Origin: Chryseobacterium camelliae
GTDB taxonomy: Bacteria; Bacteroidota; Bacteroidia; Flavobacteriales; Weeksellaceae
Length of the DNA stretch: 64,000 bases
Assembly: GCF_030818575.1 (NCBI RefSeq)
Contig: NZ_JAUTAL010000001.1
Coordinates: 3,038,001-3,102,000 of the forward strand
Reading direction: 5' to 3'
Position 1 is the first letter of the stretch; every line of letters begins with the position of its first letter. Positions 2,986 to 30,820 of the stretch are shown piece by piece. The notes under the pieces are model-generated. The model was not told where the DNA came from. It did no database searches and saw only the letters and a list, made by a program, of their open reading frames with translations. Both the position numbers and the translations under genes were made by a program.

Positions 2986-4221
2986 TTATAATTCATTATA
3001 AGAACTTTTAAAAAAATACGAAGCGACAAACAAAGCGATGACAGCAGTCTGGATCCACTCAAAGTCAAGCTTGAACCTGATGTTTGCAGCATGCCCGATA
3101 AGATAAGGAAAGGTGAATCCCGAAAAAACCAGAATCAATATGAAAAAAAGTTTTTTATTCGTACGGTAAAAATAAACCAGGCTTATCAGCAATGCCAAAT
3201 TAATGATGATCACATAGCATTTTCTTCCTACCAGAACAGATAAGCTGTGATCATCAAAATACCTTTTAGGGACAAACCATAGACTGATGGTATTATTCAC
3301 AGCTTTTTTAAAGGGTGCCCACCGATCGTGCTGAATAATCTTTTCGACCTCGTTTCTGTAAATGTTTTCATCTTCAAATTCGTTATACTTGCTTATACGG
3401 GAAAAAACTTCTTCTTTATGTTTTTCCGAAATAAAGCGATAATCAAGAATCTGGTAATCCGGAAGGTAGCCCAGGTACATATTCTGCCATACAGGCGACT
3501 TACTCACTATTACGGTATCAAAAGCCCTGTAATTCCTGATTACCCATGGGGAATACAATAGTATAGACCCCAAAGCAACGATAAGAGCATTTTTAAAGGA
3601 TATCTTACGGCAGAGTATCAGGACTACAAACAGCAAAGCCATAATTGGCACAGCCACAACCTGCGTCAATCCTACGGTAGCAGTTAACAATGAAAACAGG
3701 CAAAGTGTCCGGACAGAATATCCCTTCATCCAGATCATTGAATATACATACAGCCATCCTGTAAAAAGGAGCAAGAAGATATTGGTGGCTTCCATAATAT
3801 TGGAATAATAGAAATACGCCGGTGAGAAAATAAAAAAATAGGCAGCCAAAAATCCTGCTTCCTGAAATTTGAAATTTTGAAAAATCCTGATAAGCAATAC
3901 AGGAATAATGAAATAAAAAAGATGTTGTGTAATGATGATCCACTCGGCTGCAGGCCCGCTCCCGAAAATCTTCATGTAGACACTCAGAAAGAGAGGATAT
4001 ACAGGAAGCTTGTAGGCAGAACTTCCAAACTTCATATCCATGGCATACCTTCCGTAGGCGGCAATATTTTCGGCAATGGACCAATCCTCGAAATGCTCAG
4101 CCTTAAAACCTGATCTCACTGAAAAAATAATTTTCAGGACAAAGATCATCAGGTTACAGACAAGAAAAAATTTCCAGTTAAGGATCTTCTTTATGAGCGG
4201 TATGGCGGAAATGTTTTTCAT
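2986..4221 (-). CDS. Multi-spanning membrane glycosyltransferase (GT39/ArnT-like)
   Basis: A 411-residue integral membrane protein with about ten hydrophobic segments. The first extracytoplasmic loop (about residues 38-75) has acidic residues in EDWSIAENIAAYGRY followed by SAYKLPVYPLFLSVYMKIFG. This is the pattern of polyprenyl-phosphate-sugar dependent transferases of the PMT/ArnT (GT-C) group. Such enzymes move a sugar from a lipid carrier to a protein or lipid on the periplasmic face; the substrate here is unknown. It stands alone, transcribed from a promoter that overlaps the nusG terminator, and its codon use looks like the core genome. Confident of class, not of substrate. Confidence 0.7.
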   Translation of the reverse strand: MKNISAIPLIKKILNWKFFLVCNLMIFVLKIIFSVRSGFKAEHFEDWSIAENIAAYGRYAMDMKFGSSAYKLPVYPLFLSVYMKIFGSGPAAEWIIITQHLFYFIIPVLLIRIFQNFKFQEAGFLAAYFFIFSPAYFYYSNIMEATNIFLLLFTGWLYVYSMIWMKGYSVRTLCLFSLLTATVGLTQVVAVPIMALLFVVLILCRKISFKNALIVALGSILLYSPWVIRNYRAFDTVIVSKSPVWQNMYLGYLPDYQILDYRFISEKHKEEVFSRISKYNEFEDENIYRNEVEKIIQHDRWAPFKKAVNNTISLWFVPKRYFDDHSLSVLVGRKCYVIIINLALLISLVYFYRTNKKLFFILILVFSGFTFPYLIGHAANIRFKLDFEWIQTAVIALFVASYFFKSSYNEL

Positions 4222-6468: not shown

Positions 6469-6627
6469 ACCTTTTTAATGAAAAAAATGTTTCAATATTC
6501 AGATCCATAGAAGTACAAACCTTATATTTCAATGTATTGAAGTGCAAATTTACACAATTTTCTCAATTGAAAAAATCTGGTCTGTGTTTTTTCTCGTATA
6601 TCCTTTTAAACCTTTAAGTATAAACGT

Positions 6628-8139
6628 ATGAAAAAACTATCTTACCTGAGCACGGTACTGTTTGCTTCTTTTGCCCTGTTATCCTGCAATGACAATGAAG
6701 ACAGCTTAAATCCGCCGGCATCAAATCCTGGACCTGATCTCATGGTGTACGGCATTACATCTAACAATGAGCTGGTTTCCTTTAATGCTTCCAATCCGTC
6801 AAGCTTTACGTCAAAAAATACCATCACCGGAATAGGCTCCGGAGAGAAATTAATGAGTGTTGATTTCAGGCCTGCGACAGGGGAACTGTATGCTGTTTCC
6901 AGCGCTAGTAAAATTTATGTCATCAATACCTCGTCTTTTTCGGCAAGAGCCGTGAGCAGTACGGCTTTCAGCCCATCTGTTTCCGGAAGCATCATCTCTA
7001 TTGACTTCAATCCTACGGTTGACCGCATCCGTCTGGTAAGCAATACGGGACAGAACCTGCGCATCAACCCTGAAACCGGTGTCACCGCTGCTACAGACAG
7101 CAACATCAACGGTTCGGGAATGCCTTCCGTTACCGGTATTGCGTATACCAACAGCAAATCCGGAGCTTCGTCAACAACTTTGTATGATATTGATGCGGCA
7201 TCGGGCAAGCTTTTCAAGCAGGATCCGCCTAATAACGGAACCTTAGTTGAAGTGGGCAGCCTTGGTTTTACATTCACAGGACAGGCTGCTTTTGACATCA
7301 ATCCAGGCAATACCGCTGCTCTGATGGCAGTGCAGGCCGGCAACCAAAATATCCTGTACACGCTTGACCTCACTTCCGGGAAAGCCTCTAATATCGGTAC
7401 TTTGCCACAAACGGTCATAGATCTTGCCATTCCTACGGATCCCGTAGCCTATGCCGTAGATAACTCCAATAATCTCCAGATCTTTAACCCTAACAATCCT
7501 ATGCCGGTCTCTAAATCCATGACAGGAATGCAAAGCGGTGAAAGTATCGTAGGCATCGATTTCCGGCCAGCAAACGGACAATTGTATGCCATGGGCAGCT
7601 CAAGCAGGATGTATACGGTCAACCTGGGCACGGGAACACTGACCGCTGTAGGGTCTTCGGCATTCAGCACACAGCTTTCCGGAACGGATTTCGGATTTGA
7701 TTTCAATCCTACCGTAGACAGGATCCGTGTGGTGAGCAATACAGGGCAGAATTTAAGGCTGAATCCTAATGACGGAACCATTTCAGCGGTTGACCTCACG
7801 ATCAATCCGGGAACTCCGGCAGTAAGTGCAGCCGCTTACACCAATAATGTAGCAGGCGCTACAGCCACTACCCTCTTCGTGATCGATCATAATACAGATA
7901 AACTGTACCAGCAGACTCCTCCCAACAACGGTGTTCTGGTAGAAACCGGTTCACTGGGCATTAATATCAGCAGTGCTAACGGTTTTGATATCGGAAGCAT
8001 GAGCCAGAAGGCGTACCTGATGGCCACAGTAAATGGAGCTACAAAGATCTATACGGTGAATACCACTACAGGGGCTGCTACTGCAGTATCCGACTATCCT
8101 AATTCGGTAAAGGCATTTACAATAGGACTAGGATTTTAA
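6628..8139 (+). CDS. DUF4394-domain lipoprotein (two tandem domains)
   Basis: Exported lipoprotein of unknown function. The signal peptide ends in the lipobox ALLSC with lipidated Cys20. The 503-residue protein consists of two homologous halves (about residues 38-265 and 268-500). Each has a DFRPA.G.LYA segment and the strongly repeated FNPTVDRIR.VSNTGQNLR motif, which marks DUF4394, a probable beta-propeller. The repeats suggest an internal gene duplication. It is transcribed away from tuf, and a strong hairpin follows the stop. It lies within the 10.6 kb that separates the tRNA genes from tuf. Confidence 0.85.
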   Translation: MKKLSYLSTVLFASFALLSCNDNEDSLNPPASNPGPDLMVYGITSNNELVSFNASNPSSFTSKNTITGIGSGEKLMSVDFRPATGELYAVSSASKIYVINTSSFSARAVSSTAFSPSVSGSIISIDFNPTVDRIRLVSNTGQNLRINPETGVTAATDSNINGSGMPSVTGIAYTNSKSGASSTTLYDIDAASGKLFKQDPPNNGTLVEVGSLGFTFTGQAAFDINPGNTAALMAVQAGNQNILYTLDLTSGKASNIGTLPQTVIDLAIPTDPVAYAVDNSNNLQIFNPNNPMPVSKSMTGMQSGESIVGIDFRPANGQLYAMGSSSRMYTVNLGTGTLTAVGSSAFSTQLSGTDFGFDFNPTVDRIRVVSNTGQNLRLNPNDGTISAVDLTINPGTPAVSAAAYTNNVAGATATTLFVIDHNTDKLYQQTPPNNGVLVETGSLGINISSANGFDIGSMSQKAYLMATVNGATKIYTVNTTTGAATAVSDYPNSVKAFTIGLGF

Positions 8140-17117: not shown

Positions 17118-17125
17118 TTTATGTG

Positions 17126-17198
17126 AGCGGAAGACGGGGGTCGAACCCGCGACATTCAGCTTGGAAGGCTGACGCTCTACCAACTGAGCTACTTCCGC
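17126..17198 (-). tRNA. tRNA-Gly (anticodon TCC), copy 1
   Basis: Acceptor GCGGAAG/CTTCCGC, anticodon loop CTTCCAA and T-arm GGGTTCGACCCCC on the minus strand. The gene is identical to the copy at 17543-17615. Confidence 0.97.
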
Positions 17199-17231
17199 AA
17201 TTTTGTTTCCAAAATTATTGGTAACGCTGTG

Positions 17232-17262
17232 CAAACTTAGGAAAATCCAGTGAAATCTGCAA
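17232..17262 (-). promoter_or_regulatory. Promoter before tRNA-Gly copy 1
   Basis: On the minus strand TTG (17260-17262), a 20-base spacer and TAAGTTTG (17232-17239) match the consensus. The start would be about 27 bases before the tRNA. It is duplicated with the tRNA block. Confidence 0.6.
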
Positions 17263-17284
17263 CTTTTTTTTCTAATATAAAATG

Positions 17285-17365
17285 TGGGGAGAGCAGGATT
17301 CGAACCTACGAAGCCGAAGCAACTGAGTTACAGTCAGTCCCATTTAGCCACTCTGGAATCTCCCC
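17285..17365 (-). tRNA. tRNA-Tyr (anticodon GTA), copy 1
   Basis: Class II tRNA with a long variable arm (TTGCTTCGGCTTC region). Acceptor GGGGAGA/TCTCCCC and anticodon loop CTGTAAC on the minus strand. Identical to the copy at 17702-17782. Confidence 0.97.
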
Positions 17366-17383
17366 AGATATTTTATATTAATG

Positions 17384-17457
17384 AGCCTCCAGAGGGATTC
17401 GAACCCACGACCCCGAGATTACAAATCACGTGCTCTGGCCAACTGAGCTATGGAGGC
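17384..17457 (-). tRNA. tRNA-Thr (anticodon TGT), copy 1
   Basis: Acceptor GCCTCCA/TGGAGGC, anticodon loop TTTGTAA, T-arm GGGTTCGAATCCC on the minus strand. Identical to 17801-17874. No consensus promoter lies directly upstream; the preceding 85 bases hold the hairpin after tRNA-Gly copy 2. Confidence 0.96.
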
Positions 17458-17538: not shown

Positions 17539-17542
17539 TTTG

Positions 17543-17615
17543 AGCGGAAGACGGGGGTCGAACCCGCGACATTCAGCTTGGAAGGCTGACGCTCTACCAA
17601 CTGAGCTACTTCCGC
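17543..17615 (-). tRNA. tRNA-Gly (anticodon TCC), copy 2
   Basis: Same sequence as 17126-17198: acceptor GCGGAAG, anticodon loop CTTCCAA. Confidence 0.97.
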
Positions 17616-17648
17616 AATTCTGTTTCCAAAATTATTGGTAACGCTGTG

Positions 17649-17679
17649 CAAACTTAGGAAAATCCAATGAAATCTGCAA
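17649..17679 (-). promoter_or_regulatory. Promoter before tRNA-Gly copy 2
   Basis: TTG (17677-17679), 20 bases, TAAGTTTG (17649-17656) on the minus strand; the duplicate of the site at 17232-17262. Confidence 0.6.
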
Positions 17680-17701
17680 CTTTTTTTTCTAATATAAAAT
17701 G

Positions 17702-17782
17702 TGGGGAGAGCAGGATTCGAACCTACGAAGCCGAAGCAACTGAGTTACAGTCAGTCCCATTTAGCCACTCTGGAATCTCCCC
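17702..17782 (-). tRNA. tRNA-Tyr (anticodon GTA), copy 2
   Basis: Same sequence as 17285-17365, with the long variable arm and anticodon loop CTGTAAC. Confidence 0.97.
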
Positions 17783-17800
17783 AGATATTTTATATTAATG

Positions 17801-17874
17801 AGCCTCCAGAGGGATTCGAACCCACGACCCCGAGATTACAAATCACGTGCTCTGGCCAACTGAGCTATGGAGGC
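17801..17874 (-). tRNA. tRNA-Thr (anticodon TGT), copy 2
   Basis: Same sequence as 17384-17457. It is the first tRNA after the cluster promoter. Confidence 0.96.
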
Positions 17875-17980: not shown

Positions 17981-18271
17981 CTAAGCCATTTCTTTTTTCT
18001 TGATTAGTAGCTTTTTAGCTGCATCTACACAAAGATCCAGGCTTTCTTCAAAGGTGGTGCTGGTCTTTTTTACCACGATATCTTCTCCCGGAACCGCCAG
18101 GATTACTTCGGCAGTTTTGTTGGCCCTGTCCGAGGTATTTTCTACTTTAAGAAACACTTTGCATTCATGGATTTTGTCATAGAATGTTTCCAGTTTCGTT
18201 ACTTTTTTGTCGATGTGCGTTTCCAGTGGTTCGTGAGGAGTTAAACCAATTGATTGTACGGTGATCTTCAT
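17981..18271 (-). CDS. hpf: Ribosome hibernation-promoting factor, HPF/RaiA family
   Basis: Binds the 30S decoding centre in stationary phase and keeps ribosomes inactive. At 96 residues this is the short form, without the C-terminal dimerisation domain of long HPF. The fold is beta-alpha-beta-beta-beta-alpha: MKITVQSIGLTPHEPLETHI, KVTKLETFYDKI, then ESLDLCVDAAKKLLIKKK. Its ATG overlaps the stop of the recombinase gene by four bases (18268-18271), so the two are translationally coupled. The rpsU-xer-hpf-tRNA order is typical of flavobacteria. Confidence 0.93.
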   Translation of the reverse strand: MKITVQSIGLTPHEPLETHIDKKVTKLETFYDKIHECKVFLKVENTSDRANKTAEVILAVPGEDIVVKKTSTTFEESLDLCVDAAKKLLIKKKEMA

Positions 18272-19161
18272 AATTCATCTTTTTTAGACGCTCTTGGATG
18301 AGCCTTATTAAACACTTTTTTCAATTGTTCGATATTGGCATTCGTATAAACCTGCGTGCTTGCAAGGCTGGAATGTCCCAATATTTTCTTTACTTTAGAA
18401 ATTTCCGCCCCGTTGTCCAGCACATGGGTTGCAAAACTGTGCCTGAGGATATGAGGACTTTTTTTCTGCTTGGATGTTATAAGACTAAGGTACTTATTAA
18501 CCACCAGATAGACAAATTTTTCGGTGAGTTTTTTCCCCTTGCCATTAACGAAGAAACAGGAAGCATAATCCTCCTGCGGCTGCCGTACCAAGAGATATTT
18601 TCTAAGCAGGGAAGCCAGCGATTCAGATATGGGAATCATTCTTTGTTTATTTCCTTTTCCCAGGATCTTCATCATGCAGCCATCCAGGTCAACATGCTCA
18701 AATATCAGGCCACAAAGCTCGGCTTTCCGCATCCCGGTCTGGTACAATACTTCAATGATGCATTGGTCCAGCATATCGTATCCGCCTTCTGAAATCCGGT
18801 CTCCGAGCGTAACCATCTCTTCTTCAGAAATGGGAATCTGTTTCTCAGGGTAAAACTTTAGGGAAGCAATGCCTTCAGCCGGCGAAACGGTGATCTCCCC
18901 TATTTTGAGGAGGAAAAGATAGAAACTCCGCAAAGAGGAAAGTTTCCTGTTGATGCTTCTTTTAGAAATGTCCTTTTCGCTGAGCTCAACGATGAAATTC
19001 CGGATGACTTTTTTGTTGATGGCTTTAAGGTCTTCCGAAGACTCTGTTTCCAGGCAGAAACGGGAAAAGTCTTCCAGGTCTTTTTTATAGCTTGTAATCG
19101 TATGGGGAGAATACCTTTTTTCTAGCTGCAGGTATTCTAAAAATTTATCCAGCATCATCAT
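18268..19161 (-). CDS. Tyrosine recombinase XerC/XerD family
   Basis: Site-specific recombinase, probably for chromosome dimer resolution at dif. The 297 residues comprise an N-terminal SAM-like core-binding domain (1-95) and a catalytic domain (105-290) with Arg145 (TGMRKAEL), Lys169 (LGKGNKQR), His237-x-x-Arg240 (HILRH), His263 (LGHSS) and nucleophile Tyr272 (TQVYTN): all catalytic residues are present. It is set in the conserved rpsU-xer-hpf housekeeping string, so I read it as a cellular Xer protein and not as the integrase of the nearby ssrA island. Confidence 0.92.
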   Translation of the reverse strand: MMMLDKFLEYLQLEKRYSPHTITSYKKDLEDFSRFCLETESSEDLKAINKKVIRNFIVELSEKDISKRSINRKLSSLRSFYLFLLKIGEITVSPAEGIASLKFYPEKQIPISEEEMVTLGDRISEGGYDMLDQCIIEVLYQTGMRKAELCGLIFEHVDLDGCMMKILGKGNKQRMIPISESLASLLRKYLLVRQPQEDYASCFFVNGKGKKLTEKFVYLVVNKYLSLITSKQKKSPHILRHSFATHVLDNGAEISKVKKILGHSSLASTQVYTNANIEQLKKVFNKAHPRASKKDEL

Positions 19162-19716: not shown

Positions 19717-20115
19717 GGGGTTGACTGGTTTCGACAGCAAGGTCAATGGGTAAGTAAGCATGCAGAGAACCGTAGCGCGATCTCTATAATCCCTTGCTAC
19801 AAAATTTTAACTGGCAACGAAGAGTTCGCTCTTGCAGCTTAATATCGAAGTATAGTAGATCAAGCGTTTTCCCGAAGATTTCAGTAGGGAAGCAAGATGT
19901 CCCACAAAAGCCCTGTTCTGCGGCGTTTGATCCTGGGATATAGGAATGCAGGAATAAGGCTTTAGATGCTTCGGCTAAAGTTCGAAAACCTCAGAAGATA
20001 AGCTGGAAGTTGGGTGTCTGCTCTCTGCCTCCAGTCGAAAATCAATAGCAGAATAAGCATGTAGAAATCTTATGTATTGCTTGTTTGGACGAGGGTTCGA
20101 ATCCCTCCAACTCCA
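19717..20115 (+). ncRNA. ssrA: Transfer-messenger RNA (tmRNA)
   Basis: Rescues stalled ribosomes and tags the unfinished protein for degradation. The 5' end GGGGTTGACTGGTTTCGACAG and the 3' end GAGGGTTCGAATCCCTCCAA then CTCCA form the tRNA-like domain: acceptor GGGGTTG pairs with CAACTCC, and GTTCGAATC is the T-loop. The tag frame begins at GGC 19813 and ends at TAA 19840-19842, coding GNEEFALAA with the LAA end typical of tags. The length is about 399 nucleotides. A strong terminator follows. The 3' end is duplicated at 22111-22191, marking an integration site. Confidence 0.97.
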
Positions 20116-20163
20116 CTGGGAAAAAAGAGAAAATGCAGTTTGCATTTTCTCTTTTTGTTTTCT
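20081..20163 (+). repeat. ssrA 3'-end direct repeat, functional copy (att-like)
   Basis: The last 35 bases of ssrA plus its terminator. The same stretch recurs at 22111-22191 with a few substitutions and small gaps. In between are two genes not expected at this locus. Integrases commonly use the ssrA 3' end as attachment site. Confidence 0.7.
20126..20157 (+). terminator. ssrA terminator
   Basis: AGAGAAAATGCA-GTT-TGCATTTTCTCT followed by TTTTTG: a 12-bp perfect stem. Confidence 0.9.
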
Positions 20164-22110: not shown

Positions 22111-22191
22111 TTTGTTCAGGCGAGGGTTTGAATCCCACTACTCCACTGAAAAAAGAGAAAATGCGGGTTGCATTTTCTCTTTTTGTTTTCT
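22111..22191 (+). repeat. Decayed second copy of the ssrA 3' end and terminator (att-like)
   Basis: Matches 20081-20163: GAGGGTTTGAATCCC against GAGGGTTCGAATCCC, ACTCCACTG against ACTCCACTG, then the same hairpin AGAGAAAATGC...GCATTTTCTCT with its T-run. The T-loop C has become T, so it could not end a working tmRNA. It still carries an intact terminator that serves the SDR gene. Confidence 0.8.
22154..22184 (+). terminator. Terminator after the SDR gene
   Basis: AGAGAAAATGC-GGGTT-GCATTTTCTCT followed by TTTTG. It is the duplicated ssrA terminator. Confidence 0.85.
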
Positions 22192-22377: not shown

Positions 22378-23199
22378 ATGATTAGGAATATAAAAAACTA
22401 TTTGCTTGTATTTGTGATGATATCGTGCCATCTTTTAGGTCAAAAATCAAGCTTTATATATGAGTTAAAATACAAGCCCCATACTGACAGCATAAGACTT
22501 GACACCATTACGTATTATCTGGATACCGATAAAGACGTATTATTGTTTCGTTCTGCAATGTTCCGGAAATCAGATTCATTAGCGATTAAAAGAGGATATC
22601 CTAATGGGTTTGATACTGAATTTAATAATAAGTAACTGTATGTGAAAAAGGATACTAAAGAAAATACTGTTTTAAAGTATGTTTTCATTCCTATAGCATA
22701 TTCAACCTTTGCCATAAAAATGAATGAAAAGATTGAATGGAAAATATTACCGGAAAAACAAACAATTGGAAAATATCTTTGTCAAAAGGCGGAAGGATCT
22801 TATGGCGGAAGGATCTGGAATGCATGGTTTACCTCTGAAGTTCCAATTTCCGACGGACCATATATTTTTAGTGGTTTACCTGGATTAATCATCAAAATAA
22901 CAGATGATCAAGGAGATTATGATTTTGAATTGGTACAAATCAAAGATTTCAAATGGAAAGAATTATATCCGGCAAAATATCAGAAGTTGATTTCTTGGGA
23001 GGATTTCCAAAAAATACAGACCGATTTTTATAACAATCCTTTATCCACGCTTAAAAAAGGAGATATTTTAAATGAGGATGCTTCCGGAACTCTTTCCGAA
23101 GCAAACCACAGAGACGTGAAAGAATCTATCAGAAAAAATATCAGAAGTAAAAATAATCCCATAGAGCTAAATTATAAAGTAGATTTTAAAACCAATTAA
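22378..23199 (+). pseudogene. GLPGLI family gene interrupted by an in-frame stop
   Basis: Two open segments (22378-22635 and 22636-23199) lie in the same frame and are separated only by a TAA at 22633-22635. Read through, the 273 residues form a normal GLPGLI protein: signal peptide (YLLVFVMISCHLLG), then the body with AWFTSEVPISDGPYIFSGLPGLIIKI around residues 160-185 and the usual Lys/Asn-rich C terminus. The stop could be a single C-to-T change (CAA to TAA). A GTG restart at 22642 would make a protein without a signal peptide. It is related to the intact gene at 1368-2156. Its function is unknown. Confidence 0.85.
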
Positions 23200-23240: not shown

Positions 23241-23380
23241 CTGCTGGCGCAAGCATCTCGCTCGTGCCAAAATAAAAGCTAACTCTTTTTAGCATCTTTT
23301 ATTGATTTGGATACCTATTATATCTAATAAATATAAGCGTGAAATAATGTGCACGAGCGTGACGCTCGCGCTAGCCAGGG
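23241..23380. repeat. MITE-like repeat, copy 1
   Basis: 140 bases, strongly similar to 28419-28562. The ends are imperfect inverted repeats (CTGGCGCAAGCATCTCGCTCG near the left, CGAGCGTGACGCTCGCGCTAG at the right). The interior includes AAAATAAAAGCTAAC and a shared TATCTAATAAATATAAGCGTG. There is no open reading frame. It looks like a non-autonomous mobile or palindromic interspersed element. Confidence 0.75.
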
Positions 23381-23538
23381 GCATCACACTTGTCATTCTT
23401 GCTGTTTAAAATTTTGCCGATTTCTTACAGAATAACAGAGTTTAACGCTCCTTATATTTTAATTCTTAATTGTTTTTTCTATTTCTAAATTTGTTATATC
23501 TTCAAATTTAATAATTTGCAATAATTATTGTTACTTTA
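23381..23538. other. AT-rich gap between repeat copy 1 and the STAND gene
   Basis: 158 bases following the gene's stop on the minus strand. I find no gene and no convincing terminator. Confidence 0.5.
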
Positions 23539-26500
23539 TTAACTTTCTTTGTAGGGAGTCAAAGAAAGATCACCCTCAATTTCTCCATTATTGTTCAAAT
23601 AAAAAATATTATTAATATTACCTTCATTAATGATGCTCATATCTCCAATTACTTCTTTTGCTCCTAATACCAACCAGATTATCTCAAGATCTTTTTCGGC
23701 TAATTTCTTCAGTAAATGTTCTTTATCAACAAGAAGGCAATCATTTCCTTCTTGAAATTTTATTGCAGGATTGAAAACTACTAACTTATTATCTTGATTA
23801 TATAATTCATATTCATTATCTCTAAAATGTATATCTAATAAATTAAATAAATATTTGGTAGGTCTTTTTATATAAACATTTTCTTTTAAAGAAAAATCTT
23901 TTTCTTTATAATAAACATAGTTCATAGATGTCTGATATCCTGAAATATTTTTACCATTTATTTCAGAGTGTAATCTTTTATCGCTTGTTTCCGGATGATT
24001 TTCATATGTACAATCATCAAAAGCTTTACTACAATAATATTCTCTACTATAAACTTCATAAACATCTCTTTCTTGTGGAATTTGATGATTAAAAAACGAT
24101 TTTCCTTTTAAAGTCTTAATAATGGCTGTTTTATCTTTTTTATTAATAATGAAACTTTTTATATGATACCATATTTGTTTCTTACTACCCATTGAATCTT
24201 CTTTACTATACCAAGAAGGATATGAATACAAATTCAACCACTCATTACCATTATTATCTTTAATATCTACAAGGAATTTAGGATGAACCAGATCATTAGT
24301 ATTTAACACCCATTTAGTAAAATCTTTATTATTCCAATCAAATTTATTTTCAGGATACCAAAATGTTGCTTTATTATTTTTGTATGACTCCTCTTGATAA
24401 AATTCCCTTTCTAATAAAGTAGGGTCAATATCTCGTCTATTGGTAGACCAAGAGCCTGTAGTATATACTTCAAATTTACTGTCGTAGATAGAAGAATAGT
24501 CTAATTGTGTTAAATAATTATCTAAAATAACAGCTAACCATTTATAATAAGAAATAAGTACATATTTTTTTCCAATGGATTCTCTTTTAGAATAAGTTTC
24601 TTTATTGAAATATGCATCTCTTAAATGTCTATAATCATGAATGTCAAACCATTCTTTTTTCCATCCATAAGTTTTAAAAACGTCATTTATAATTAATCTT
24701 TGAATAACTGAAATATCGAATCTTGGTTCAGAAGAATAATTTTCTGAAATTCTATTTATGTAATTATACAGTAATTTTGCTTTATCAGGGGGGAGCTTAA
24801 AAAGGACTTTCAATACATTTTCTAAGCTCTCATATAAATCTTTAAAAAGTTCTTTCCATTCCTGTCTAACAAAATCAGATTTATAGTCTTTACAATGCTT
24901 GATTAGATTCTCTAATTCTTCTTTATTTTTCTTTGACGAATTGGTTACTTCTTGAAAAACACTATATGATTCTATTGAAATATTTGATATTTTAGAATGA
25001 TAATTTGTACCTAATGTATATCTTGCAAAATCACTAAAACCCATTACGAGATTGTAAAGACTGTTTTGAACATTAAATTCTTTCTTTTCTATTTCAAACT
25101 TCTTAACCTCCGTTTCTGATGGAATCTTTTCAGGCATTTTACTTTTATATGGAGGACGAGCGTCTTTTATATCAAATTTCAATAATCCTTTAGAGTTTGC
25201 AAACTCTATAACTCCTCTCGCATAATCTCTAACTAAATGATGCTCAATAGGGTTTTTATTTTTAAAAATAAGATTAAAAATGAAGGTTGCAAAAACTTTT
25301 AACTGCTTCTCATTATTTGTTCTTAATGTTGAACCGTAAGCCACAGCAAAAAGTCTTTCCTTTACATATAAATCATTGACATTTTTGAAAAATTTAATCA
25401 ACCTTTCAAGTAATGGTAGGTTGTTTTGAAAGATTTTAACCAAAGCTTTTGTTGATAAGTCTCTTAATTCTCTGTTTGATGAAGCTAAAAACCAAGTTAA
25501 AACAATTGATGTTAATTTTTTAGACTCTTCAGTAAAACTTTCAATATTCTCACTCTCAAATATCCAGTCAATAAACAGCTTTGCTATTTCAGAATCATTA
25601 ATGAAAATAGTCCACCAATAATCTCTTTGATTCATTTTCATACCTGATAAAAAATTATCGAGATAATAAGAATTCAGAAAATGGTCTTCTCTTAAAGATA
25701 ACTGAATAAGTATTTCAAGAAACTTATTTTTTAATCCATTAATTGTTAATATATATTTATCAATGTAATTATTTATTTTTTCGTTAATTGTATCTTTATT
25801 TCTCCATATCAAGCTATCTAAAAATGCTTCTCCAATATCGTATATGTTATTGTTTTCTAACAATTCGTAAAGTTCAAAATTTGTTTTTTCAGGAATAATA
25901 ATAGAAAAAGCCTCAATTACGCTCTGATTTCTCATAATTGCATTTTCATCTTTTATATATTCATGAATTTTACAATCAGAAGTTATTGTTTTTTTCTGTT
26001 CAATTATTTTGAGGTCTTCCAATAACAAAGTTTTAGCAATTAAATAGTCACCTAATCTTTCGTAAGAAAAGTAAACTATTTCTTTATCATATTTCTCTGT
26101 TTTAGGATTATAAATTGCATTTTCATTTAGAATATTTTCATTGATTAATTCTATTAAAATATTTCTACTATTGGATACATCATTTTTGAAATTTTCTTTA
26201 AATAGAACATTTGCATCTTTTCTTGAAATTTGAAAAGAAGGATGTTTAATCATTTCTGAAACAATTAGTTCAATAGCTTCATTTACTAAATTGAAATCCT
26301 TATGATTGTAACCAAATTTTTTCGATAATGATTTATTGACTGCATCAATTAAATAATCGAAAATTGTGTTTAAGTTATCATAATTTTGTGGTATTGTTTT
26401 CAATCCGTTATCTGACAAACCTTTACAAAATAACTTTAAAAATAGGGGATTGTTAAATTCTGGATTTAATATTGGTATAGGAGGTTCTTGAATGTTATAA

Positions 26501-27951
26501 TGTTCAAAAAATACTTTCGTAGCATTATACAAATTATCAAAACCTCTATGCTCAAAATGAGCAACCTTATCTAAAAAATTATCTGGAAGAACAATATCCT
26601 TATAAGTACTTCTTATGGTTAATACTATACCAATATTTGGAAATGCTTTAATATCTTCTAACAAACCGTTTAATTGGTCTTGCCAAATTTCTTTTCCCTC
26701 ACCTTCATTAATTGCATCAATATATATTATTATTCGAGAATTAATTGATTCTGCTTTTGAGTTTATTGCACCTAAAAATTCCTCTTTGGAATCTTTTATA
26801 TCAAGTAGATTTTTTATTTGCGTCCAAACATTTCCTGTATAAAAATGTTGTCCTAATAATAAAATACTAAATTGATTTTCGTCAAATCCTTGCTTTATTA
26901 TATCTGCAACTAAATGAGATTTGCCAATTCCTGCCTTTCCTTCAATAAGTAAATAAGGTACATCGGCTAATTCTGCATCGAAGTTATGTAATCCGCTATT
27001 AACGTCGTGAATGCTTCCTACAAGTTCATCAAACTCTCGTTTTATTAAACTCTCATTTTTATTGTCTTTGATGATTTTAAAATAATTATTTCCAAAATGA
27101 GCCGCTAAATAGTTGTATGTATAATCATAGAGATTCTTAATTAATTTGTGTTTTTCAAAGTTTTGTTTATTTAATAATTCTTTCGTTTTTAGTTTTAATT
27201 TGTTAAAAGTTTCTTCAGAAAAAATTTTGATTTCAGGAAAATCTTTTAGAGTACTTAAAAATTCTGAAAATTTAGTATCTGCTTTTGCTATATTATTTGT
27301 AAGATTTTCTTTAAATCTTTTATTTAAATATAAACCGTCAAAAACATATTTAATATCTAAATCAACATTTATCTCAGGTGAATATCTTACGCCTAAATCT
27401 TCAATCTTGCTTTTATTCTGTTTAAAAAACCATTCATCAGAATATTCATTTTGGTTAAACCAAAACAATCTTTTACCTATATTTTCAGGTTTTGTTAATT
27501 TATCTAATAACTCAGAGCTACCTTCATATAAAAATTCAACGTCATTGTTTCTTTCTTTAGCCCACTTTTCCCATTTAGCAACCGAATCATTCCACTTATC
27601 TAAAAAAGATTTTTTTCCTTTAACTCTTGCATCAGCTCTATCTTGAGGAATCGAAACAATATATTTTATCAAATTAGGATGCTTTTCTAACGCCGTTTTA
27701 ACTGATTCATCAATCTCACCCCATTGCGTTGATGTTAAAGGAGAAGTAAAGAATTTTGCTTGATAACATATTTCTCTATCATCATTTAATATCCAAAAAC
27801 ATTCAACGCCTGCATCGGGAGAACCCTTCCTTACAAAAGATTTTGCATTATCAATGTTGTCATTTTTAGCAAGCTGACATACCAACTCCTCAAATCCATC
27901 TTTTTGAGAGTTATTTAAGGAGCGTATGTTATTCCAATCTAAATTCTGCAT
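23539..27951 (-). CDS. Avs-like STAND NTPase with N-terminal nuclease-like domain (putative antiphage)
   Basis: A 1470-residue protein in three parts. Residues 1-160 resemble a PD-(D/E)xK (Mrr/Cap4-type) nuclease: GFEELVCQLA at 19-28, Asp46 in SPDAGVECFW, and Gln64-x-Lys66 in CYQAKFF. Residues about 330-620 form a STAND/NACHT ATPase with Walker A GKAGIGKS (338-345), Walker B IIIYIDAINEG (407-417), Arg447 in LTIRST, and NPLFLKLFCKG (501-511). The remaining 850 residues form a large helical and unknown C-terminal part, where Avs proteins recognise phage proteins. Known Avs proteins detect terminase or portal and then cut DNA; that role here is inferred. The gene is far more AT-rich than its neighbours and is bracketed by repeat copies at 23241 and 28419. 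No partner gene is adjacent. Confidence 0.8.
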   Translation of the reverse strand: MQNLDWNNIRSLNNSQKDGFEELVCQLAKNDNIDNAKSFVRKGSPDAGVECFWILNDDREICYQAKFFTSPLTSTQWGEIDESVKTALEKHPNLIKYIVSIPQDRADARVKGKKSFLDKWNDSVAKWEKWAKERNNDVEFLYEGSSELLDKLTKPENIGKRLFWFNQNEYSDEWFFKQNKSKIEDLGVRYSPEINVDLDIKYVFDGLYLNKRFKENLTNNIAKADTKFSEFLSTLKDFPEIKIFSEETFNKLKLKTKELLNKQNFEKHKLIKNLYDYTYNYLAAHFGNNYFKIIKDNKNESLIKREFDELVGSIHDVNSGLHNFDAELADVPYLLIEGKAGIGKSHLVADIIKQGFDENQFSILLLGQHFYTGNVWTQIKNLLDIKDSKEEFLGAINSKAESINSRIIIYIDAINEGEGKEIWQDQLNGLLEDIKAFPNIGIVLTIRSTYKDIVLPDNFLDKVAHFEHRGFDNLYNATKVFFEHYNIQEPPIPILNPEFNNPLFLKLFCKGLSDNGLKTIPQNYDNLNTIFDYLIDAVNKSLSKKFGYNHKDFNLVNEAIELIVSEMIKHPSFQISRKDANVLFKENFKNDVSNSRNILIELINENILNENAIYNPKTEKYDKEIVYFSYERLGDYLIAKTLLLEDLKIIEQKKTITSDCKIHEYIKDENAIMRNQSVIEAFSIIIPEKTNFELYELLENNNIYDIGEAFLDSLIWRNKDTINEKINNYIDKYILTINGLKNKFLEILIQLSLREDHFLNSYYLDNFLSGMKMNQRDYWWTIFINDSEIAKLFIDWIFESENIESFTEESKKLTSIVLTWFLASSNRELRDLSTKALVKIFQNNLPLLERLIKFFKNVNDLYVKERLFAVAYGSTLRTNNEKQLKVFATFIFNLIFKNKNPIEHHLVRDYARGVIEFANSKGLLKFDIKDARPPYKSKMPEKIPSETEVKKFEIEKKEFNVQNSLYNLVMGFSDFARYTLGTNYHSKISNISIESYSVFQEVTNSSKKNKEELENLIKHCKDYKSDFVRQEWKELFKDLYESLENVLKVLFKLPPDKAKLLYNYINRISENYSSEPRFDISVIQRLIINDVFKTYGWKKEWFDIHDYRHLRDAYFNKETYSKRESIGKKYVLISYYKWLAVILDNYLTQLDYSSIYDSKFEVYTTGSWSTNRRDIDPTLLEREFYQEESYKNNKATFWYPENKFDWNNKDFTKWVLNTNDLVHPKFLVDIKDNNGNEWLNLYSYPSWYSKEDSMGSKKQIWYHIKSFIINKKDKTAIIKTLKGKSFFNHQIPQERDVYEVYSREYYCSKAFDDCTYENHPETSDKRLHSEINGKNISGYQTSMNYVYYKEKDFSLKENVYIKRPTKYLFNLLDIHFRDNEYELYNQDNKLVVFNPAIKFQEGNDCLLVDKEHLLKKLAEKDLEIIWLVLGAKEVIGDMSIINEGNINNIFYLNNNGEIEGDLSLTPYKES

Positions 27952-28025: not shown

Positions 28026-28361
28026 CTACTTTATTCTTAAATTATGATTTAGATTTCGTATTCTCTGCCTAAACTCTTTGCCGTATTTTTCAACTGTATT
28101 TTTAGAGAGTCCAGAAGCTTCAATAAGTTTCGTTTGAGTTATTTTTCCTAAAATTTTAAAATCCCAATTATCAAGAGCATTTCTGATTTTTTGTCTTGAT
28201 TTTTCTTTCCGTAATTCACCAGTTACTCTATTTGTTATTAATAATTTCTGTTTTCTATCTAAATTAGCTTTAGGGTCAAAAATAACCCTTCTTTCTTTAT
28301 TAAAATTGGCTCAACATCTTTCAATTTATCTTTATTATTTACAATATTTACATTATTAATT
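28026..28361 (-). pseudogene. Frameshifted remnant of a replication/mobilisation-type gene
   Basis: On the minus strand, two frames join across the A-rich run near 28290-28300. The first reads INNVNIVNNKDKLKDVEPI (28361 downward); the second, from about 28310 to the TAG at 28026-28028, reads ERRVIFDPKANLDRKQK and then KITQTKLIEASGLSKNTVEKY, an HTH-like C terminus. No start codon precedes either part. The C-terminal pattern resembles the ends of plasmid or mobile-element replication proteins in Bacteroidetes; I cannot name the family. It is AT-rich like the STAND gene and lies between that gene and repeat copy 2. Confidence 0.55.
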
Positions 28362-28418
28362 TATCAAGAGAGATGTGTTTTTACTTAAAATATTCTGAAA
28401 TTTTATTCAGGAATTACC

Positions 28419-28562
28419 CTGCTGGCGCGAGCGTCTCGCACGTGCCAAAATAAAAGCTAACGCTTTTGAGCATTTTTCATTTATCTAGATACCTATTAGT
28501 ATATCTAATAAATATAAGCGTGAAATAATATGCACGAGCGTGACGCTTGCGCCAGCGAAGGG
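28419..28562. repeat. MITE-like repeat, copy 2
   Basis: 144 bases in the same orientation as 23241-23380, with long identical blocks (GTGCCAAAATAAAAGCTAAC; ATATAAGCGTGAAATAAT; GCACGAGCGTGACGCT) and a few indels. The terminal inverted repeats are CTGGCGCGAGCGTCTCGCACG at the left and CGAGCGTGACGCTTGCGCCAG at the right, so this copy is the better preserved. Confidence 0.75.
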
Positions 28563-28638
28563 AATAAATTGAACTAGTCAACACTTAATCAGATACTAAT
28601 TATCAAAGAAAACTTTAATATATGCAAATATTTAATAC

Positions 28639-28685: not shown

Positions 28686-29099
28686 TCAATCTTTAATCAC
28701 CTTCCTCACCAGCTCCTCAATCACCCTACTCTTCTCCTTCTCCGTTTCCAGCAGCCGCTCATACAGCTTCTTATTTTCTTCATAAACTTCTATCAATTTA
28801 TCAATAGGATTTATTGAACATTGGTAATTGTTATTGTTTGAGCTGTGTTCATTAAAAGTATTGGAAATGATATTGAAAACGGCATCATCCGAAAAATTCT
28901 TCAGCGCTTCCAACGGGATTTCCAGGGCTTTGGCAATGGGTTCCAGTTTGTGGTCTTCCAGTTCTTCGGCATTTTCCAGCAGGGATACTTTCTGCTGGCT
29001 GACGCCTAAAATTTCGGCCAGGGTTTCCTGCTTCATGCCGCGCATTTCCCGGATTCTTGCGATGTTTCTCCCGATATGTTTCTTTGCTGTAGCTGTCAT
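28686..29099 (-). CDS. XRE-family helix-turn-helix regulator (second)
   Basis: A 137-residue regulator. A longer frame to 29147 exists, but a full consensus promoter lies inside that extension (29117-29147), so I place the start at 29099 (MTATAKKHIGRNIARIREM). Residues 7-62 form the HTH (GMKQETLAEILGVSQQKVSLLEN). An Asn-rich linker then leads to a C-terminal coiled coil (LIEVYEENKKLYERLLETEKEKSRVIEELV). The layout is the same as the XRE protein at 2585. It is divergent from the HEPN-like gene and probably controls it or itself. Confidence 0.85.
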   Translation of the reverse strand: MTATAKKHIGRNIARIREMRGMKQETLAEILGVSQQKVSLLENAEELEDHKLEPIAKALEIPLEALKNFSDDAVFNIISNTFNEHSSNNNNYQCSINPIDKLIEVYEENKKLYERLLETEKEKSRVIEELVRKVIKD

Positions 29100-29116
29100 A
29101 GGTTGAGATTTGAAAT

Positions 29117-29147
29117 CAAAGATATACATTATACGAGATTCTGCCAA
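29117..29147 (-). promoter_or_regulatory. Promoter of the second XRE gene
   Basis: TTG (29145-29147), 20 bases, TATCTTTG (29117-29124) on the minus strand, 18-25 bases before the start at 29099. It decides the start codon. On the plus strand TATATTTT at 29151 may drive the divergent gene. Confidence 0.65.
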
Positions 29148-29236
29148 GACTATATTTTACATTCTGTTATAGTTCGGTACACCAATCCTTGGTTGGCTAC
29201 GTTGATTTTTCGGCTCAATTTGCGGTAAAAATCAAG

Positions 29237-30820
29237 ATGATGAACACACAAATCCTTATTCCGGAACGCCATCCGCAGTCTGAAAAGCTGTCGGAACTCC
29301 TGGCTTCTTTTGCCGGCAGAACCGCCGTGCAATATGTATTCCTGAGCTATTCGCAGACCGCTCAGAAGCAGCTTCTGATCATCCACCTCAGCAGCTCTCA
29401 CCTTCCGGACGGAGTGTACCGGGGCAAATGGATCCGTAAAGCACTGCACCAATGCAAAACCCACGTCATCCTGCTGGCTGGACTGGACGTCAGAAAGCAC
29501 CTCAGGCTCGGAAGCCTGTTTACCCTCCGGCATTGCCATGCTTCCACCCTGATCCATACTGCGGAAGGCCATGAATTTTCAGCGCCGGAACCTGGCAGGC
29601 AGCTGAAAAAGTTCAGGCAGTTCAGGGAAGCGTATTACCACACCCACGATTTACTCAGCACTGAAATCAGCAAAGCGGAAAACAGCCATTCCCTGGCGAT
29701 GGCATATCACCTGTATACCAGCCTTTTCCAGCACCACCTGTTTTACCTGGAATTCCTCCATCTGGGCACGTATTTCTACCAGGACAGCCTGGATCAGCGG
29801 TTCCTGAGGCTGGAGCCATTCCTCCCGCAGATCAGGAGCCTGATGCTGAAAAAGACCGGCACCACATATTTTATTACCGATGCGCTCCTCAGCGTAGCCA
29901 AAGCAGACCGGCAACAGGATCTTATGTGCCTGAAAGATGAATTTAAGGAAGCCATTGCCGAAACAGAGCGCCAACTCTACGATATAGTCACAACAACATT
30001 CCGGGAAATGAAAAAGGCAGTCAGGCATCGGTCCATAACACCCCAGATCCTGACTAAGAACAAAGCTGTTTCGCCTTACGAACCGGTGATCAGTATCCTG
30101 ACCCGCCATTTCTGCATCGAAGAAATTTTCCTGTTCCATCAAGAAGAAGTTTATGCTGCCGGACAAAAAACCCAGGTGCTTTACCTGCTGCTGCTGAGCA
30201 AAAAGATCAGCAACCAGGACCTGTTTGAGATGATGCAGATCGTTGCCCGGAAGACCGGCGGAACCTATGCCGTCGTTCCGATTGCCCATTCAGCAGCCTG
30301 GATCCAGGACTCCCTTTGGGAATGCCAGTCGTTTTTCCGTACGATTATGGTCCCGGAAAAAGCGATCTATACCGCAGAAATCCCTTCCGTCATCCACTGG
30401 CATACCGGAGAACAAGATGCAGGTTTGGATATCGACCTTGACTACCATCACTTTTGCGGGCTCCACGAAAAATACCGGCTGGTGCGTTCCGTGGAAAAAC
30501 CGGATTCCCATCAAGGAAGCGGACTGATTTTAAGCGGCATTTTCTACCGCGCCTGTTCGGTATTCATTTATGCCACGCTCCATTACCGACCAAACAGGAT
30601 CAACATCCGCATCCTCTGGAAACTCTGCGAATATGCCGAACCGAAAATAAAAACCTTGGGTTACCTCATCGAAAAGCTGCCGTTCGATTTCTTTAGCTTC
30701 CTCAATCCCTCCGAAAACCTGCACAGAGATACCTGCCTCCTGAATGAGGATATTCTTAAAATCATAGATGAGCTGGTGCAAGCCTTTGCGGAACTGCTGG
30801 AAGAACGTTGTAAAAAGTAA
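29237..30820 (+). CDS. HEPN-like protein with internally duplicated halves, function unknown
   Basis: About 527 residues from the ATG at 29237 (MMNTQILIPERHP, after an A-rich stretch); an earlier ATG at 29189 is in frame. Each half seems to hold an alpha/beta module resembling a nucleotidyltransferase fold but without the GS-x-DxD catalytic motif (VQYVFLSYS...KQLLIIHLSS; IEEIFLFHQ...VLYLLLLSKK). Each is followed by a helical HEPN-like module (SLAMAYHLYTSLFQHHLFYL; LSGIFYRACSVFIYATLHY). No RxxxxH RNase motif is evident. It is His-rich in helices and clearly more GC-rich than the STAND gene region. It is divergent from an XRE regulator, a layout seen in toxin-antitoxin-like and defence loci. 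Family assignment is tentative. Confidence 0.6.
   Translation: MMNTQILIPERHPQSEKLSELLASFAGRTAVQYVFLSYSQTAQKQLLIIHLSSSHLPDGVYRGKWIRKALHQCKTHVILLAGLDVRKHLRLGSLFTLRHCHASTLIHTAEGHEFSAPEPGRQLKKFRQFREAYYHTHDLLSTEISKAENSHSLAMAYHLYTSLFQHHLFYLEFLHLGTYFYQDSLDQRFLRLEPFLPQIRSLMLKKTGTTYFITDALLSVAKADRQQDLMCLKDEFKEAIAETERQLYDIVTTTFREMKKAVRHRSITPQILTKNKAVSPYEPVISILTRHFCIEEIFLFHQEEVYAAGQKTQVLYLLLLSKKISNQDLFEMMQIVARKTGGTYAVVPIAHSAAWIQDSLWECQSFFRTIMVPEKAIYTAEIPSVIHWHTGEQDAGLDIDLDYHHFCGLHEKYRLVRSVEKPDSHQGSGLILSGIFYRACSVFIYATLHYRPNRINIRILWKLCEYAEPKIKTLGYLIEKLPFDFFSFLNPSENLHRDTCLLNEDILKIIDELVQAFAELLEERCKK

Follow-up and report, generated by a model that had tools for sequence, protein, structure and literature searches.

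The 1470-residue protein encoded on the minus strand at 23539..27951 of the window, the 64,000-nucleotide stretch of Chryseobacterium camelliae DNA analysed here, is, as judged from its sequence, a member of the AVAST type 2 (Avs2) family of STAND NTPases and not an unplaced 'Avs-like' branch. The family has already been described, and the avs2 product is a new but ordinary member of it, extending a known family of immune sensors by a Chryseobacterium Avs2 of the nuclease type. PADLOC assigns residues 2–1464 to Avs2 with a score of 1288 bits, and the whole protein gives no PADLOC match to Avs1, Avs3, Avs4 or Avs5. The NCBIfam model for Avs2, NF041813, scores 1037 bits, above its curated equivalog cut-off of 1000 bits. 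Consistently, PDB entry 9o4e, a chain deposited as Avs2, matches residues 169–1440 with E=6.7e-179. A profile of residues 302–1470 built from 16 sequences matches the same chain with 1228 bits, identifying the C-terminal sensor as homologous to that of Avs2, and residues 1–185 alone match PADLOC Avs2 at 4e-63, as an N-terminal effector of the Avs2 type should. A sequence-only reading had recognised the Avs layout of a STAND ATPase followed by a large C-terminal sensor, and the curated models and the 9o4e match bear this out. It had also proposed a possible divergent branch with its own target; such a branch is not supported, because the curated models place the protein plainly in Avs2.

The avs2 reading frame is open and intact from ATG to stop, and full-length family matches of more than 1000 bits exclude a chance open reading frame. 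The gene is present as a single copy in its own 4.19-Mb genome. It probably encodes a working, intact Avs2 with a predicted Mrr-like nuclease, and probably constitutes a single-gene system. The GC content of avs2 is about 25–29% (0.256–0.282 per kilobase). A low-GC stretch spans 22–29 kb, and the kilobases on either side of it mostly have 36–50% GC, so the gene is, as had been noted, much more AT-rich than its surroundings. The translation places Asp46, Gln64 and Lys66, the Walker A motif GKAGIGKS (residues 338–345) and the Walker B/AINEG box IIIYIDAINEG (residues 407–417) exactly where the sequence-only reading had put them. Both Walker motifs are thus intact in the STAND ATPase region (residues 321–620; 26092..26991, minus strand). 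The Walker A and DA[IL]NEG motifs are conserved in the relatives, and the protein keeps the conserved positions. In a tree of the ATPase domain, it pairs with its nearest relative, L002 from the same genus, with strong support and falls within the Avs2 relatives without a deep branch of its own. Profile and tree thus group the ATPase with Avs2 proteins and not with non-defence NACHT proteins.

Profile and predicted fold identify the N terminus (residues 1–165; 27457..27951, minus strand) as an Mrr-like PD-(D/E)xK nuclease resembling that of Avs4, with Asp46, Glu50 and Gln64-x-Lys66 as its motif residues. When residues 1–185 are aligned with 16 relatives, F20, E21, Q26, G48, E50, Q64, K66, S83 and F165 are invariant in all 17 sequences; two distant rows carry G in the Asp46 column and D one or two columns off. 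The profile of this alignment matches Avs4 (8dgf) with E=5.6e-6 and LlaBIII weakly. A phmmer search of PDB with the N terminus alone gave nothing meaningful, and residues 1–187 have no match to 9o4e. The AlphaFold2 model of the N terminus, for which, as for the other structure models, rows from plasmid records were left out of the input alignment, has a mean pLDDT of 87 and the alpha-beta-beta-beta-alpha-beta order of the PD-(D/E)xK fold. Its top Foldseek match in PDB is again Avs4 8dgf (E=1.1e-4, TM-score of 0.55 over the query). Model and motifs together thus provide the core of an Mrr-like nuclease with its D and (E/Q)xK, and the nuclease-like N terminus suggested from the letters alone is supported by profile, model and Foldseek. 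Because the N terminus of 9o4e differs, the effector link rests on Avs4 and not on the solved Avs2.

The Q-x-K in place of E-x-K had been taken as a mark of divergence. However, in type ISP enzymes the Mrr-like domain typically carries PD-QXK in place of PD-EXK (review PMC3874165), and PD-QxK is the signature of EcoKMrr and MspJI (PMC12707154). Q-x-K is therefore a normal form for an Mrr-like nuclease, invariant here in 17 of 17 sequences, and no longer suggests a new Avs branch. The lack of the textbook E-x-K could also mean that the N terminus is degenerate and does not cut, the protein working by another route. This is very improbable, because PD-QxK is the usual form in Mrr-like nucleases (PMC3874165, PMC12707154) and because D46, E50, Q64 and K66 are all present, the last three without exception in the alignment.

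In Avs2, the C-terminal sensor recognises a viral target, the ATPase oligomerises and the N-terminal effector is activated (PMC12724215, PMC12931631). The large terminase is sensed by Avs1–3 and the portal by Avs4 (PMC12724215, PMC12931631). We consider it very likely that the protein studied here is an Avs2, most likely horizontally gained, that acts by terminase-type sensing, oligomerisation and Mrr-like DNA cleavage to bring about abortive infection. The protein would be inactive at rest. During infection, its C-terminal sensor would bind a conserved phage protein, by analogy with family members most likely the large terminase subunit, and a second trigger may exist, as for a Klebsiella Avs2. 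The ATP-bound ATPase domains would then oligomerise to bring the N-terminal Mrr-like PD-QxK nucleases together. As suggested by the domain itself and by Avs1–4, these nucleases would cut both phage and host DNA, and the infection would be aborted. Of this, the analysis shows that the protein matches Avs2 over its full length, that its N terminus has a nuclease fold in which every catalytic position is intact, that its ATPase motifs are intact and that the gene lies in the variable locus described below.

The sensor (residues 621–1470; 23542..26091, minus strand) is helical and then ends in a beta-rich part. Its model has a pTM of 0.77, with residues around 970–1080 poorly predicted, and Foldseek matches it to NAIP/NLRC4, Avs3 and Avs4. 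Compared with L002, the nuclease is 75% identical and the ATPase 46–54%, and the sensor falls to 22–38%. Because sensor identity to the nearest relative is so low, something other than terminase could act as the phage trigger, and the sensor may have shifted to another protein of Flavobacteriales phages, for example. More than one trigger has been reported for Avs proteins (PMC12931631), and a Klebsiella Avs2 has a second phage-protein ligand besides terminase (cited in PMC12724215). However, the alignment of the sensor with Avs2 proteins extends over its entire length, its score falls within the Avs2 equivalog, and rapid sensor evolution is also expected where terminases diverge between hosts. 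Such a shift is therefore rather unlikely, and an Avs2 with terminase-type sensing remains the preferred reading.

Avs2 proteins are not unusual in Bacteroidota. Matches with E of 1e-20 or better are found in 12 of 321 genomes of the host family, its own genome included, and further matches are found in 8 of 396 genomes of an order sample and 10 of 395 of a phylum sample. The Bacteroidetes host, once read as another sign of divergence, thus says little. Avs2 is also carried on plasmids of several phyla. A whole-protein scan of genome contigs gave no relatives, whereas the genome-wide search did. Other Avs2 relatives, several of them from the same genus, can be aligned with the protein only from about residue 164 onward. 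L007–L010 have trypsin-like N termini with TAAHC/TASHC/TAKHC and GFSG[AS]G motifs in alignment and translations, the N terminus of L009 matching Trypsin_2 weakly. L006, L019 and a Vibrio plasmid copy have a third kind of N terminus. Different N termini on Avs2 relatives therefore indicate that the effector has been exchanged within Avs2, and Avs2 effectors differ even within a single genus. In G261, the first part of a contig (L044, 230–471) encodes only the last ~97 residues of an Avs2, 68% identical to the query; the remainder of this gene was not found.

The avs2 gene lies in a variable region bordered on the left by tmRNA (ssrA; 19717..20118, plus strand; ARAGORN, Rfam RF00023 with 147 bits). 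Two close relatives, G026 and G169, share flanks of 92–94% nucleotide identity and have different contents between tmRNA and an XRE-type gene. In G026 these are an unknown gene pair for 678-aa and 155-aa proteins, genes of the DUF6932 and NYN types and an NTPase of the KAP family; in G169 they include a nuclease of the YhcG type (PADLOC candidate PDC-S02). Neither Pfam nor PADLOC matches the 678-aa/155-aa pair (L041 3939–6457), which could represent a cargo system not yet described. Because of the low GC content and the differing cargo between 92–94% identical flanks, avs2 was most likely gained horizontally. With flanks nearly identical in genomes that have avs2 and genomes that lack it, the locus lends itself to a natural comparison. 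The protein could in principle have a non-defence role, for example as a regulator, because STAND and NACHT domains are found in regulators and the generic Pfam matches are weak. The full-length Avs2 models and structure match, the patchy distribution and the other, partly defence-like cargo at the same region in close relatives leave almost no room for such a role. The XRE-type gene (28686–29147) was considered as a dedicated regulator of avs2 and rejected, because it occupies the same place in G026 and G169, both of which are without avs2.

Directly upstream of avs2 lies a remnant of a BT4734-like protein, its last 90 residues (28029..28298, minus strand), which matches the C-terminal part of 400–450-aa proteins from other species of the genus; these full-length counterparts carry PF08800 BT4734-like_N. 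At 22119..22147 (plus strand; repeat D3), 2 kb downstream of the tmRNA gene itself, the 3' end of tmRNA is partly duplicated: the stretch is a fuzzy match to 20087–20117 of a kind absent from shuffled sequences, and a duplicate of the tmRNA terminator follows it up to about 22195. G026 has another such partial copy (L041 7891–7919). These tmRNA 3'-end copies hint at past integration at tmRNA. Inspection by eye recognised no integrase gene among the open reading frames between tmRNA and 31 kb. A tyrosine-recombinase-like open reading frame (18268–19161) precedes tmRNA, as its conserved counterpart does in G169; by eye, it looks like a housekeeping Xer protein. The GLPGLI (Porph_ging) family gene at 22378–23199 has an in-frame stop near 22635; its copy in G026 is intact, with 273 residues. 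The reading frame at 29189–30820 encodes a 527–543-aa protein without a convincing Pfam match, with close relatives in only about ten of 148 genus genomes plus more distant ones. Farther to the left, a tRNA Gly-Tyr-Thr cluster is tandemly duplicated (17125–17457 and 17542–17874, 331 of 333 bases identical).

Two imperfect palindromic repeats of ~145 bp bracket avs2 as direct copies with 81–90% identity. The left (23241..23384, plus strand) and right (28417..28565, plus strand) copies are predicted to fold, with z=-5.2 and z=-6.3, respectively. Among 173 genus genomes, long copies are found in three, namely its own, G026 and G169 (2, 3 and 2 copies), all of them at this same locus, and in the two relatives the direct copies bracket other genes. 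The copies of the relatives lie at 6609–6718, 7743–7888 and 11552–11697 of L041 (G026), where the partial tmRNA copy adjoins one of them, and at 3930–4068 and 6788–6934 of L042. As compared by eye in the aligned copies, the two ends of the repeat have the sequence CCCTGCTGGCGC...GCCAGCGAAGGG. The idea that the ~145-bp element is a simple dispersed repeat was discarded, because only its ~30-bp REP-like ends are dispersed. An integron gene cassette was likewise rejected, because attC core sites (GTTRRRY / RYYYAAC) are absent from the repeat ends. Cargo may be exchanged by homologous recombination between the repeats. That they act as recombination sites for a small cassette system, specific to this locus beside tmRNA, that swaps cargo including defence genes between strains is an improbable conjecture.

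The closest known systems are the described Avs2 proteins (PADLOC PDLC02164/PDLC02162, NF041813, 9o4e), with which the protein shares full-length architecture, ATPase motifs and sensor. The Avs2 models of PADLOC already include its N-terminal type, and the Avs2 relatives found are about 25–38% identical to it over long stretches. However, the solved Avs2 9o4e has an N-terminal stretch unlike that of the query. Trypsin-like Avs2 proteins (PADLOC PDLC02163; L007–L010) have the same ATPase and sensor, but their effector is protease-like, whereas that of the query is a nuclease. Avs4 (8dgf), the portal sensor, has an Mrr-like N-terminal nuclease in common with the query by profile and fold. However, the ATPase and sensor of Avs4 are not those of the query, which by sequence match Avs2; Avs4 matches are confined to the N-terminal domain, and the whole protein gives none. 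The catalytic D...QxK is also common to the Mrr-like PD-QxK nucleases EcoKMrr and MspJI and the type ISP enzymes LlaBIII and LlaGI. The nuclease of EcoKMrr, MspJI and the type ISP enzymes is fused to domains for DNA binding or translocation, whereas that of the query is fused to a STAND switch.
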